From IMG/VR virus record IMGVR_UViG_3300020603_000036, positions 1-45,992 of that record: a DNA stretch of 45,992 nucleotides. One strand, written 5' to 3'. Shown one piece after another: positions 5,580 to 9,800 of this stretch; the first letter of the stretch is position 1; every line of letters begins with the position of its first letter. The DNA is from a virus. Under the pieces are notes generated by a model. The model did no database searches, was not told the DNA's origin, and worked only from the letters and a program-made list of their open reading frames with translations. The translations under genes were made by a program, and so were the position numbers.

Positions 5580-5590
5580 TAAAATATAAT

Positions 5591-5614
5591 GGGGGGATCA
5601 ATGTCCCCCCTTTT
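5591..5614 (+). terminator. Rho-independent terminator after the sheath gene
   Basis: Seven-base stem GGGGGGA / TCCCCCC (5591-5597 with 5604-5610), loop TCAATG, followed by TTTT. It starts 12 bases after the sheath stop. It also overlaps the first codons of the longest reading of the next ORF, which argues that ORF starts further downstream. Confidence 0.8.
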
Positions 5615-5621
5615 AGCCAAG

Positions 5622-6443
5622 ATGAAAAATGAATTTAGGGAAGGTTTTACAGAAAAGGGAAGTCCCGATATGAAATATTATGCTTTTGATTGGGACGATA
5701 ACATAGTTCACATGCCAACAGAAATTATCCTGAAAACAAAAGATGGAGATGAGGTGGGTATGTCAACAGCTGATTTTGCTGAGTATAGAGATAGGATAGG
5801 AAAAAAAAATTTAGATTACAAAGGTGATATTATTGTGGGACTTGCTGAAAACCCTTTCAGAAATTTCAGAACAAGTGGAGACAAACAATTCCTTATCGAC
5901 GCAATGAAAGCTAAAGTAGGTCCAGCATTTGACGACTTCAAAGAGGCAATCAATAATGGATCAATTTTTTCTATTATCACAGCAAGAGGTCACAACCCAA
6001 ACACTATAAAACAAGGAGTATACAATTATATCATCAATGATTTCAACGGTATCAGTAAAAAGGAACTACTTAAGAATCTGAGAAAATACCGTTCTTTTGT
6101 GGGTGAAGGAGAAATGACGGATGATGAATTAATAAAAACCTATTTGGAGTTAAACAAATATCATCCAGTCTCATTTGGTAATGAGGATTCTGCAAAAAAC
6201 CCCGAAAAGGCAAAAGTGGAAGCAATGGAAGGGTTTGTAAATTACATCAAAGCCATGGCTGCTTTATTAAACAAGAGAGCATTTCTTAAAAAAGATATTG
6301 CTAATAAATTCACACCTACTATTGGATTTTCTGATGACGACTTAAAAAATGTGGAAGTTATGAGAAAAAGGTTTGAAAAAGATTCAGATAATGTTGTTAA
6401 AACTTATTACACTGGAACTGGAAAAAAATCTAAGATGGAATAA
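5622..6443 (+). CDS. HAD-like hydrolase inserted between sheath and tube genes
   Basis: 273 residues from ATG 5622. The longest frame begins at 5589, but its first 8 codons lie in the terminator hairpin, so I prefer 5622 (ATG at 5670, just before motif I, is also possible). Motif I is YYAFDWDDNI with the catalytic DxD pair; motif II is the hydrophobic strand ending in SIITARG (Thr and Arg); a late GFSDDDLKN carries the acidic motif IV residues. These are the elements of the haloacid dehalogenase superfamily, usually phosphatases acting on nucleotides, sugars or nucleic-acid ends. The motif III lysine is not assigned, with KRAFLKK or the EKAK segment as candidates. The 100-odd residues between motifs II and IV would be a cap or insertion. 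The substrate is unknown. T4 Pnk has a HAD 3'-phosphatase domain, but no kinase domain is present here. Confidence 0.75.
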   Translation: MKNEFREGFTEKGSPDMKYYAFDWDDNIVHMPTEIILKTKDGDEVGMSTADFAEYRDRIGKKNLDYKGDIIVGLAENPFRNFRTSGDKQFLIDAMKAKVGPAFDDFKEAINNGSIFSIITARGHNPNTIKQGVYNYIINDFNGISKKELLKNLRKYRSFVGEGEMTDDELIKTYLELNKYHPVSFGNEDSAKNPEKAKVEAMEGFVNYIKAMAALLNKRAFLKKDIANKFTPTIGFSDDDLKNVEVMRKRFEKDSDNVVKTYYTGTGKKSKME

Positions 6444-6534: not shown

Positions 6535-7023
6535 ATGGCTGATTTACTAATGAAAATGCCGATACCTTACGAACCGAAACGTCAGAATCGATTTATTCTG
6601 AGATTTCCTTCGACATTAGGTATAAATGAGTGGTTTGTAGAATCTGCTGCAAGACCTCACATTTCAATTGCTTCTACAGAGATTCAATTTTTAAATACAT
6701 CAACATATGTTGCTGGTAGATTCAACTGGCAACCAATCAATGTAACATTCCGAGATCCTATTGGACCATCTGCAGCACAAGCTCTTATGGAGTGGGTTCG
6801 TTTACACGCAGAATCTGTTACAGGTCGTATGGGTTACGCCGCGGGTTACAAAAAAGACATTGACCTTGAAATGTTGGATCCAACAGGAGTAGTGGTTGAG
6901 AAATGGATACTCTATGGTACGTTCTTGACAGATGTTAACTTCAACGCACTAAATTATAGCCAAGATGCGTTGGCAAACATAACTACAACCTTGAGAATGG
7001 ACAGATGTGTTCTTGTATATTAA
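6535..7023 (+). CDS. 19: Tail tube protein (gp19-like)
   Basis: 162 residues, against 163 for T4 gp19. It forms the hexameric rings of the inner tail tube through which DNA passes. The sequence shows the expected pattern: N-terminal IPYEPKRQNRFILRFP, a central GRFNWQPINVTFRDPIGPS strand pair, LMEWVRLHAESVTGRMGYAA, then DIDLEMLDPTGVVVEKWILY and a final SYSQDA-type segment NYSQDALANITTTLRMDRC. The gene is flanked by its own promoter-like heptamer upstream and a strong terminator downstream, so it is probably a monocistronic, highly expressed late gene. The ATG at 6535 gives the family's normal N-terminus. Confidence 0.95.
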   Translation: MADLLMKMPIPYEPKRQNRFILRFPSTLGINEWFVESAARPHISIASTEIQFLNTSTYVAGRFNWQPINVTFRDPIGPSAAQALMEWVRLHAESVTGRMGYAAGYKKDIDLEMLDPTGVVVEKWILYGTFLTDVNFNALNYSQDALANITTTLRMDRCVLVY

Positions 7024-7055: not shown

Positions 7056-7087
7056 AACCGTGGAGACAAAACTCCACGGTTTTTTTT
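7056..7087 (+). terminator. Strong terminator after the tube gene
   Basis: Ten-base stem AACCGTGGAG / CTCCACGGTT (7056-7065 with 7072-7081), loop ACAAAA, then T tract 7082-7087. The next gene's ATG follows the T tract immediately at 7088, so no separate leader or promoter fits between them. Confidence 0.9.
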
Positions 7088-7831
7088 ATGGATAACCAAA
7101 CACTACAATACGCAACACAAAACCTAAGTTTTCCACATGATGTGGTTCCACTACCATCGGGTGGTGTATTTTATAAGAACAAAAAATCATCTGTAAAAGT
7201 TGGATATCTTACAGCCAATGATGAGAACATCATTATGGGTGGGAGTAACAATCTTACTCTTGATCTTATAAGAGCTAAATTATTTGAACATGACATAAAA
7301 CCTGAAGATCTTATGGAAACTGATATTGAAGCAATTCTCATTTTTTTGAGGAACACTTCATTTGGTCCTGAGATTATAATGACGGTTAATGATCCGAAAA
7401 CAAATAAAACTTTTGAGACGACACTATCTCTTGCAGAACTTAGTATCAAAAAGGGTATTGAACCGAACGAGGAAGGTCTATTCGAAACAAAACTCCCTGT
7501 TTCAGGTAGTATTGTTAAAATTAAACCGCTCACACTTGGACAACTCAATGAGATTACCACAATGGTTGACCAATATCCTAAGGGTAGGACGGCTCCAAGA
7601 ATTACATGGAAACTCGAAAGACAAATTGTTGAGTTAGATGGATCGAGAGACAGAGGTCAAATCTCCACATTTGTAAGTAAAATGTTGATTGGTGATTCAA
7701 AACACATAAGAAAATTCTTGGAGGACAACGAGCCAAGACTTGATATGCAACGTGTTGTAACAACCCCATCAGGAGATAAGCTGACCGTATTCGTTGGCTT
7801 TGGGGTGGACTTTTTTCGTCCTTTCTTCTGA
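7088..7831 (+). CDS. gp26-like tail/baseplate assembly protein (upstream frame)
   Basis: 247 residues. The N-terminal VPLPSGGVFYKNKKSSVKVG, YLTANDENIIMGG and the following DLIRAKLFEH match the T4 gp26-type family (PLPS-G-FY, then a strand, then LT--DE-IL). Members act in baseplate hub or tail assembly. It lies directly after the tube gene and directly before the tape-measure gene, the position of the lambda G-type tail assembly chaperone in long-tailed phages. The reading frame ends at TGA 7829-7831 just after FGVDFFRPFF, and a second frame continues past it, suggesting a frameshifted longer product. The ATG directly follows a terminator T tract with no ribosome-binding site. This gene may therefore depend on terminator read-through of the tube transcript, which would set a low ratio to tube protein. 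Confidence 0.75.
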   Translation: MDNQTLQYATQNLSFPHDVVPLPSGGVFYKNKKSSVKVGYLTANDENIIMGGSNNLTLDLIRAKLFEHDIKPEDLMETDIEAILIFLRNTSFGPEIIMTVNDPKTNKTFETTLSLAELSIKKGIEPNEEGLFETKLPVSGSIVKIKPLTLGQLNEITTMVDQYPKGRTAPRITWKLERQIVELDGSRDRGQISTFVSKMLIGDSKHIRKFLEDNEPRLDMQRVVTTPSGDKLTVFVGFGVDFFRPFF

Positions 7832-7976
7832 TTATAGAAAGTCTCAAATCGATGAATTCTACTATTTGAATACACTTTTGAAGATAACTTGGCAGGACTT
7901 CTTAGTGATGCCAATATTCGTAAGAAAATATCTTTTGGAAAAGTGGGTTGAAGATAATAAAAAAGAGGGAACTTAA
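7794..7976 (+). CDS. gp51-like C-terminal extension in the +1 frame (probable frameshift product)
   Basis: Open frame of 60 codons if counted from TTG 7794; it overlaps the preceding gene by 38 bases in the +1 frame. It has no ATG before codon 39, so independent initiation looks poor. At 7811-7817 the upstream frame reads TTT TTT C; a phenylalanyl-tRNA on the second TTT can re-pair with TTC after a +1 slip, and translation then continues GTC CTT TCT. The joined protein would be 243 + 52 = 295 residues. The extension contains QIDEFYYLNTLLKITWQDFL and MPIFVRKYLLEKWVE. This resembles the short gp51-type segment (hydrophobic helix, then MP--RK--L) that follows gp26 in other T4-like phages, and echoes the lambda G/GT design. 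Confidence 0.65.
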   Translation: MALGWTFFVLSSDYRKSQIDEFYYLNTLLKITWQDFLVMPIFVRKYLLEKWVEDNKKEGT

Positions 7977-7990
7977 AATTGTTCCCTCTT
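7963..7990 (+). terminator. Hairpin terminator across the stop of the assembly-chaperone frame
   Basis: Ten-base stem AAGAGGGAAC / GTTCCCTCTT (7963-7972 with 7981-7990), loop TTAAAATT that contains the TAA stop. Only a weak T-rich tail (CTATTTAT) follows, and that tail is the promoter-like heptamer of the next gene. Confidence 0.7.
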
Positions 7991-8012: not shown

Positions 8013-9800
8013 ATGGCACAGGATGATAAAATAGGATCGGCAAAGGAAGAATTTGAAAAATTCGGATCAATACCAAGCCAAATTGCGGATGCAGTACAGG
8101 CTTTGAATCTATATGCCTCAGATGTAAACCGAACTTTCGGTCAAATGAGACAACGAATTAGTGATGCCGTTCGTGAAATATCTCTCGCAACACCTGAGTT
8201 AAATAAACTCGACGCTACAGCTAAAGACGCAACTGAGACAATAATTGCTGCGTCATCAGCCACTAAAAGAAATGTTGTTGCATCGAGTGAAGCAATCACA
8301 GAATTATTTGCGACTTCGAAAGTGTTAGGAAAAGACATAGAATCTATTGTTAGTACTATGACTGACGTTGGTATTCAGTTTGGAAATTTAGAGGAAAACA
8401 TGATTGGTGCTGTAAATTATGTACAGTCTATAGGAATGAACACCCAACAAATAATGGGAGACGTTGTATACAATGCCGAACTTTTGAATAAGTTCAACTT
8501 TGAAGGTGGGGTAATGGGTCTGACCAAAATGGCCGCTCAGTCAGCAATGTTGAGGGCTAATATGAGAGATGCCGAGAACTTTGCAGATAAGGTCTTTGAT
8601 CCCGAAGGAGCTATCGAAACTGCAGCGGCTTTTCAAAGATTAGGAGTGACTACTGGATTGCTAGGAGATCCATTTGCTTTGATGAACGCATCAATCAATG
8701 ATCCTGCTGGACTACAAATGTCTTTAGCTGAAGTTGCAAAAAAATTCACAGCGTTTGATGAAAAAACGGGATCTTTCAAGATTGACCCAGGTGGTATCAG
8801 ACAGATGAAAGAACTTGCCAAGGCGGCGGGAATGTCTTATGAAAACTTTAGTAAAATGGGACTAGCTGCGGCAAACTCAGAAAGAGTATTATCACAACTC
8901 AAATTTACCGGTAATATGTCTGAAGAAGATAAGATGTACATAGCGAGTATTGCAGAAATGAAGGGAGGGGAATACCAAATTAAGGTCAGAGACGAAAAAG
9001 GAGAAGAAGTATTCAAGAATATTAAAGATTTGAATGAAGAACAACTAAAGCAAGCCATAGAACAAAATAAGAAAGAGCCTAAAACCATGGAGGAAATTGC
9101 AAGGGCTCAAATGGATACAGGAAGAGTCATGGCGGGTGATATTGCATCGATAAGAAACAGAATAGTATATGGAGTTGCAGGTGCTGATGGTTTGAGACAA
9201 CTACCTGAATTGACTAGAAAATTAGGTGAGAGTGTCACAGATGCATTTCAAAAAGTTGCACCTGGTACCGAGGATATACAAAAACTTACAGGTAATGCTA
9301 TAAGTGAACTTGGAAAGACAATGGTAGATGTAATCCAAGGAAACAAATCTTTCCAAGATGTTGGTAAAGAACTTATGGATAAACTGAAAGGATCAGGGGT
9401 GGATATTTCTAAGTTTGCCGATAAGATGGGAACCATACCTGAAAAACTAATGGATTCTCTTTATGAAAGGTTTAAAGATGACAGGACAGAGGTTGGTAAG
9501 ATGATAAGTGGTTATTTGAAACCTGGGTCATCTCGCAGAGGTGAATTCCAAAAAGGAATGTCTTCAACGATGGATCTTGGAAAGATAAGTAAGAACGTGA
9601 ATGTGACAGAAACCAAAAACGTAAATCACGACGGAAAAATTACATTTGAATTCAAGTCTGATGGTAGTATGAACCGAGAAGTTGTACGTTCAATCGAAAA
9701 GTGGATTGAATCACAAGAAGGATCTAAAAAACTTTATACTTTATTATCAGGAATGAAAGATGCAACAGGACGTTCGATATTGGAAAAAGTTGACAAATAA
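8013..9800 (+). CDS. Tape-measure-like tail protein (gp29-like position and length)
   Basis: 595 residues, close to T4 gp29 (590). Assignment rests on position (directly after the gp26/51-like assembly chaperone, before large baseplate genes) and on character: long, largely helical, Ala/Lys/Glu/Met-rich. N-terminal heptad-like segments run through QIADAVQALNLYASDVNRTF and TPELNKLDATAKDATETI. A middle region has small-residue-rich AAQSAMLRANMRDAENFADK and AAAFQRLGVTTGLL. The C-terminus has a short beta stretch (GKITFEFKSDGSMNREVV) and a helical end. The tape-measure protein sets tail length and lines the tube until ejection. If it spans the tube as in T4, a T4-like tail of about 100 nm is implied. 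No catalytic domain was recognised. Confidence 0.7.
   Translation: MAQDDKIGSAKEEFEKFGSIPSQIADAVQALNLYASDVNRTFGQMRQRISDAVREISLATPELNKLDATAKDATETIIAASSATKRNVVASSEAITELFATSKVLGKDIESIVSTMTDVGIQFGNLEENMIGAVNYVQSIGMNTQQIMGDVVYNAELLNKFNFEGGVMGLTKMAAQSAMLRANMRDAENFADKVFDPEGAIETAAAFQRLGVTTGLLGDPFALMNASINDPAGLQMSLAEVAKKFTAFDEKTGSFKIDPGGIRQMKELAKAAGMSYENFSKMGLAAANSERVLSQLKFTGNMSEEDKMYIASIAEMKGGEYQIKVRDEKGEEVFKNIKDLNEEQLKQAIEQNKKEPKTMEEIARAQMDTGRVMAGDIASIRNRIVYGVAGADGLRQLPELTRKLGESVTDAFQKVAPGTEDIQKLTGNAISELGKTMVDVIQGNKSFQDVGKELMDKLKGSGVDISKFADKMGTIPEKLMDSLYERFKDDRTEVGKMISGYLKPGSSRRGEFQKGMSSTMDLGKISKNVNVTETKNVNHDGKITFEFKSDGSMNREVVRSIEKWIESQEGSKKLYTLLSGMKDATGRSILEKVDK

Follow-up and report, generated by a model that had tools for sequence, protein, structure and literature searches.

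The window, by which we mean the whole stretch of viral DNA that was analysed (45,992 nucleotides, a 46-kb fragment), contains a gp26-like open reading frame (ORF) at 7088..7831 on the plus strand, the strand of all features described here. It encodes 247 amino acids and is probably the short form of a tail assembly chaperone. A tail tube gene lies directly 5' of it (6535..7023; phrog_4542, E=1.3e-27; phrog_45, E=1.2e-10), and a probable tape-measure gene lies directly 3' of it (8013..9800), tentatively named from its position and a weak match to the tape-measure family phrog_10613 (E=0.015). The chaperone gene thus sits between tube and probable tape measure, as is the case for genes of the G/GT type. 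Further upstream, between the sheath and tube genes, a 284-aa ORF (5589-6443) has a weak PHROG match that carries no function and no Pfam match.

The gp26-like ORF matches PF12322 (T4 base plate protein) with E=3.7e-7 and 30.5 bits (curated cut-off 24.5) and phrog_150 with E=1.8e-8, and it is the only PF12322 copy in the 46-kb record. A small match to NdhL fell below the cut-off and was discarded, and a search for known RNA families at the chaperone locus found none. An AlphaFold model of the 247-residue short form reached a pLDDT of 87.8, and in BFVD it matched the SP-15 baseplate hub subunit (TM 0.83) and gp26 of Aeromonas phage 25 (TM 0.51/0.60). As modelled, the short form shares the fold of gp26/gp51-family members. 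The same model had no match in the PDB at E<=0.001, and none to solved chaperones such as HK97 gp13. Known tail chaperones are highly diverged from one another, so this null result is weak evidence against a chaperone of the G/GT type. Our claim is one of analogy, that the gene would work like a G/GT chaperone, not that it matches the solved ones in structure.

The 0-frame ORF ends in ...GVDFFRPFF*, its last codons being GTG GAC TTT TTT CGT CCT TTC TTC TGA, and the TGA (7829..7831) terminates the short form. Over this 3' end the +1 frame has no stop from 7785 until a TAA (7974-7976) closes it. The first-pass annotation had given both frame ends as they stand here and had described the main part of the +1 frame as lacking a usable ATG. 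That description holds: no ATG occurs in the window's +1 frame before the middle of the extension, and the ORF listed at 7794-7976 has a mechanically assigned TTG start. Within the overlap lies the sequence TTTTTTC (7811..7817), read in frame 0 as TTT TTT CGT (7811-7819), at which the annotation had proposed that tRNA-Phe slips from TTT to TTC. A +1 slip here would join 243 residues to a 52-codon extension (7818..7973), producing a long form of 295 amino acids with the junction VDFF-VLSSDYR, exactly as had been calculated. The T tract has the wrong phase for a -1 slip, and the -1 frame shuts 12 codons past the 0-frame stop; the in-phase X_XXY_YYZ heptamer and open -1 frame of the T4-like -1 group are absent from this locus.

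This arrangement is widely shared. Homologue searches gave two sets of relatives, each dereplicated separately, so their total of about 95 is approximate. These relatives, which reach down to about 21% identity, carry the same Phe-Phe codons ahead of a conserved +1-frame extension, and the slip site and frame overlap, which the first-pass annotation had suggested comparing among homologues, are both conserved in them. In the first set, the +1 frame continues for 46-89 codons past the 0-frame stop in 49 of 50 relatives (the +2 frame typically for about 12 codons), and in the second set a +1 extension is present in 46 of 49. All four exceptions across both sets have a -1 heptamer instead. As a control, +1 extensions of at least 44 codons were found in 3.8% of 131 other ORFs from the same loci. 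An estimate from base composition gives a probability of about 10^-92 for all 50 relatives of the first set, a figure that ignores shared ancestry. The +1 extension is beyond chance.

An insertion or deletion from sequencing or assembly, or the decay of a pseudogene, could likewise cut one gene into two overlapping frames. The split recurs, however, in four contigs from different samples that encode an identical protein and in the roughly 95 diverged relatives, with coding conserved on both sides, and this conservation already excludes such an origin, to which we give a negligible probability. One record does look irregular: in Stenotrophomonas phage IME-SM1 (1471-2313) the 0-frame overruns its expected end into the extension region and the normal pattern is broken, possibly by an indel in that record.

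The 0-frame junction most commonly reads TTT TTT TGG CCT or TTT TTT CGT CCT. Variants include TTC TTT TGG, TTC TTT CGT, TTT CTT TGG, TTT CTA TTC, TTT TTT CAC, CTT TTT TGG, and TTT TTT TAC; farther out, Streptomyces phage BRock shows CTG TTT CGC. The clade has cultured members, namely Flavobacterium phage immuto, whose site is TTT CTT TGG, Bacillus phage SP-15, and Microcystis phage Mel-JY01. The second codon is TTT in all 46 first-set representatives that encode Phe at that position, compared with a TTT:TTC ratio of 271:136 at upstream Phe codons; the representatives are related to one another, so these counts are not independent events. A scan of a genome collection gave one relative, in the chromosome of a WOR-3 bacterium bin: its junction is TTT TTT TGG CCT, its extension is very like that of a marine viral contig, and it would be either a prophage or a misbinned phage. 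One homologue query returned at least 600 matches.

Selection acts on both the slip codons and the extension. Comparison of 14 dereplicated near relatives with one another found no synonymous differences at the last seven codons (0 of 637 comparisons), vs approximately 35-50% over most of the gene. In the extension, change rates by codon position in the +1 frame are 0.18/0.10/0.39, i.e., concentrated at the third position. Of the codon differences, 54% are synonymous when read in that frame, vs 10% and 17% in the other two. These biases appear in the +1 frame alone, as expected if it is the only one of the three under coding selection. Its pattern FFxLxxxY...LPIxxRxWF is conserved in 37 sequences.

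A coding extension could also be a small gene in its own right, translated from an independent start codon. The downstream ORF is indeed annotated as a separate gp51 in cyanophages and others, and the window offers a TTG at 7794. We nevertheless consider a separate gene highly improbable: relatives have no conserved start codon or Shine-Dalgarno (SD) sequence; the +1 frame has no ATG upstream of the slip point or up to 10 codons past it in 22 of 49 relatives (with the slip point set several codons late for the window's group, six in the window itself); SD sites are hardly used by the window's genes (1/25); and the frozen slip codons would be left unexplained. Nor did any junction we inspected lack a slip site and have the extension solely as an independent gene, the arrangement that the first-pass annotation had held would count against frameshifting.

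If a single gene makes both products, the change of frame could lie in the mRNA, with RNA polymerase slipping on the T run and producing a mixed population of transcripts. The site does carry a run of T6-T7, but the window has only six Ts and the run is interrupted in relatives that keep the +1 arrangement (TTC TTT, TTT CTT, TTT CTA, and CTG TTT), so we give polymerase slippage very little weight. A different possibility is that ribosomes slip by -2, which leads to the same frame as +1 and has been inferred for Mu-type tail chaperones. In the window, the tRNA on TTT 7814-7816 could re-pair with TTT 7812-7814, and the product would be one residue longer. In relatives with TTC TTT TGG or TTC TTT CGT (L013, L037, L042, and L043), however, a -2 slip brings the second Phe tRNA onto TCT, whereas a +1 slip lets it pair perfectly. 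Those variants therefore disfavour -2 for these members and fit +1 re-pairing of tRNA-Phe, and -2 also fails in L158 (CTG TTT CGC), where +1 fits. A -2 slip is thus very unlikely.

Our preferred reading, to which we assign a probability of roughly 0.93, is that this member of the T4 gp26/gp51 family encodes a tail assembly chaperone in two forms, the long one of which would be made by +1 ribosomal frameshifting. The majority of ribosomes would stop at the TGA (7829-7831) and release the 247-residue short form. A minority would stall while tRNA-Phe occupies TTT (7814-7816) and the A site presents the rare codon CGT (7817..7819), and the tRNA would then re-pair with TTC (7815-7817), with slipped ribosomes continuing to the end of the 295-residue long form. 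UUU is listed among the codons capable of forward slip; +1 slip motifs in general are described as poorly defined (PMC10885494). CGT is used 3.0 times per 1000 codons in this genome (AGA 28.1), and the competing +1 codon GTC is commoner at 8.1 per 1000. If the two forms divide the work as lambda gpG and gpGT do, the short one would coat the tape-measure protein and the extension of the long one would recruit tube subunits.

Just 5' of the slip site lies an SD-like stretch, GGGGTGG (7802..7808), which in the near group is conserved beyond what coding needs. Its duplex with the anti-SD sequence averages -8.9 kcal/mol in that group vs a background of -2.0, and the Gly codon GGG is retained in 14 of 14 near-group genes, even though, across five large ORFs of the window, GGG is used for 46 of 523 Gly residues. 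It is therefore a possible SD-like stimulator of the slip. However, an SD motif precedes almost none of the window's start codons, so a stimulator of this type may not act in this host. The scarcity of SD motifs also suggests a host, for example among the Bacteroidota, that initiates translation independently of SD sequences. Downstream RNA structure was not significant in the window (z 0.04 by dinucleotide shuffles), and none was conserved across relatives (mean -0.9 vs simple shuffles).

T4 itself has two members of this family. Both gp26 (208 aa) and gp51 (249 aa) match PF12322 and phrog_150, gp51 has about 45 further C-terminal residues, and their genes lie on opposite strands. By sequence, the two are paralogues, a short and a long form, and the fusion as a whole therefore corresponds to gp51. 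The first-pass annotation had seen the fusion as a gp26-like half joined to a gp51-like half. This stands insofar as the added tail, and only that tail, corresponds to the gp51 C-terminus; it does not stand for the product as a whole, which is gp51-like over its full length.

The link to gp51 passes through relatives that use the -1 frame. Twelve loci have a -1-frame extension: cyanophages (S-PM2, P-HM1, S-SSM7, and Syn10), pf16, Aeromonas Asswx_1, Acidovorax ACP17, Vibrio phages, Agrobacterium OLIVR6, and Rhizobium I1_9. At the Phe-Phe position most read GAT or TCT TTT TTC, the canonical T_TTT_TTC heptamer, and the others a close variant of it. With hhalign, the +1 fusions align to the -1 fusions over their full length with junctions in register (E=1e-29), the +1 extensions match the -1 extensions (E=1.7e-7), the -1 extensions match the gp51 C-terminus (E=1.6e-9), and the -1 fusions match whole gp51 (E=5e-26). 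The direct comparison of the +1 extension with gp51 is not significant (E=0.027, probability 0.9%), which is why the connection has to be made via the -1 group.

In a tree of the family, the +1 group and the -1/T4 group lie on either side of a strongly supported branch, and T4 26/51 are nested among -1 phages. The N-domain of one -1 locus, L016, groups weakly with the +1 phages, so the direction may have changed once or twice. L016 had been a candidate for an exception with a separate gene and was rejected as such: it, L176, and L178 show an open -1 frame and T_TTT_TTC, and L179 is also -1. The 595-kb phage LR756511 is part of the small group made up of L016, L176, and L178, in which the -1 T_TTT_TTC site is accompanied by a longer linker.

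The two directions use the same place in different ways. The T4-like -1 loci (e.g., S-PM2, where gp26 and gp51 are annotated, KVP40-like phi-pp2, pf16, and Pootjesviridae) share with the window's clade a homologous N-domain and extension, a slip at the same Phe-Phe codons, and a T6 tract, but they form a separate branch of the tree and the phase of the tract differs: GAT TTT TTC G in the -1 loci, and GAC TTT TTT CGT or TTT TTT TGG in the +1 clade. T4 shares PF12322 and has in gp51 a gp26-like domain with a C-terminal extension, but its two separate full-length genes make a frameshift unneeded, unlike at the window locus. The first-pass annotation had noted that gp26 and gp51 of T4-like phages are usually described as separate genes, which is true of T4 but not of the cyanophages and others, which have a -1 arrangement at the same codons. 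We lean, with some reserve, towards a history in which an ancient change in the phase of the U6 tract switched recoding between -1 and +1 while the two Phe codons stayed the same and the extension was kept; in which the T4 core lineage dropped recoding for gene duplication; and in which a very large group of uncultured phages uses +1.

Frameshifting of the G/GT type has been described as widely conserved in long-tailed phages 'except T4' (PMC5009743). According to PMC10885494, which cites Vladimirov et al. 2022, a short gene and a longer, fused one take the place of frameshifting in some T4-like phages, and PMC12846349 credits the same study with polyT -1 signals in the chaperones of T4-like phages. 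Among T4-like relatives frameshifting is therefore not new, and neither is the -1 arrangement at the same codons in cyanophages and others. The new part appears to be the large +1 clade of the gp26/gp51 family, which, setting Vladimirov et al. 2022 aside, appears undescribed in the literature consulted. There would then be three routes to a short and a long chaperone within one gene family (-1 slip, +1 slip, and duplicated genes), making the evolution of recoding direction traceable and testable within it. This reading would also explain a widespread misannotation, in cultured and many metagenomic phages, of the locus as a baseplate hub subunit followed by an unexplained small ORF, and the roughly 95 diverged natural sites, mostly TTT-TTT-TGG-CC or TTT-TTT-CGT-CC, would be a useful reference set for +1 frameshifting.

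Other systems resemble the window locus in part. Like lambda gpG/gpGT, it lies between tube and tape measure and would give a short and an extended product with a common N-terminus, but lambda and most others shift by -1, the window's clade probably by +1, and the search of the PDB gave no structural match to known chaperones. The haloarchaeal myovirus HSTV-2, for whose tail chaperone a +1 shift is considered very likely (PMC5009743), has an archaeal host and resembles the window's clade in the direction described for its shift. As in the +1 frameshift of prfB, a P-site tRNA would slip forward with an SD-like stretch upstream; in prfB the pause is at a stop codon (CUU-U), whereas the window's clade has a sense codon (CGT or TGG) in the A site.

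The chaperone gene is flanked by two hairpins. One, terminator-like with a T run, abuts the chaperone ATG (7056..7081; z -5.8) and is preserved in relatives through compensating changes, and the other spans the end of the +1 frame (7963..7990; z -5.0) and is preserved likewise in near relatives. Together they may lower expression of the chaperone and tape measure relative to the tube. In SP-15, a terminator is annotated at the same place, between tube and chaperone. A recurring motif, TATTTATA, is found on the plus strand nine times in the window vs 4.5 expected, a count reached in 7 of 100 shuffles. Six of the nine occurrences lie shortly ahead of gene starts or in gaps (6495, 7992, 22048, 26646, 28184, and 41576), and the motif is possibly a promoter or RNA-processing element.
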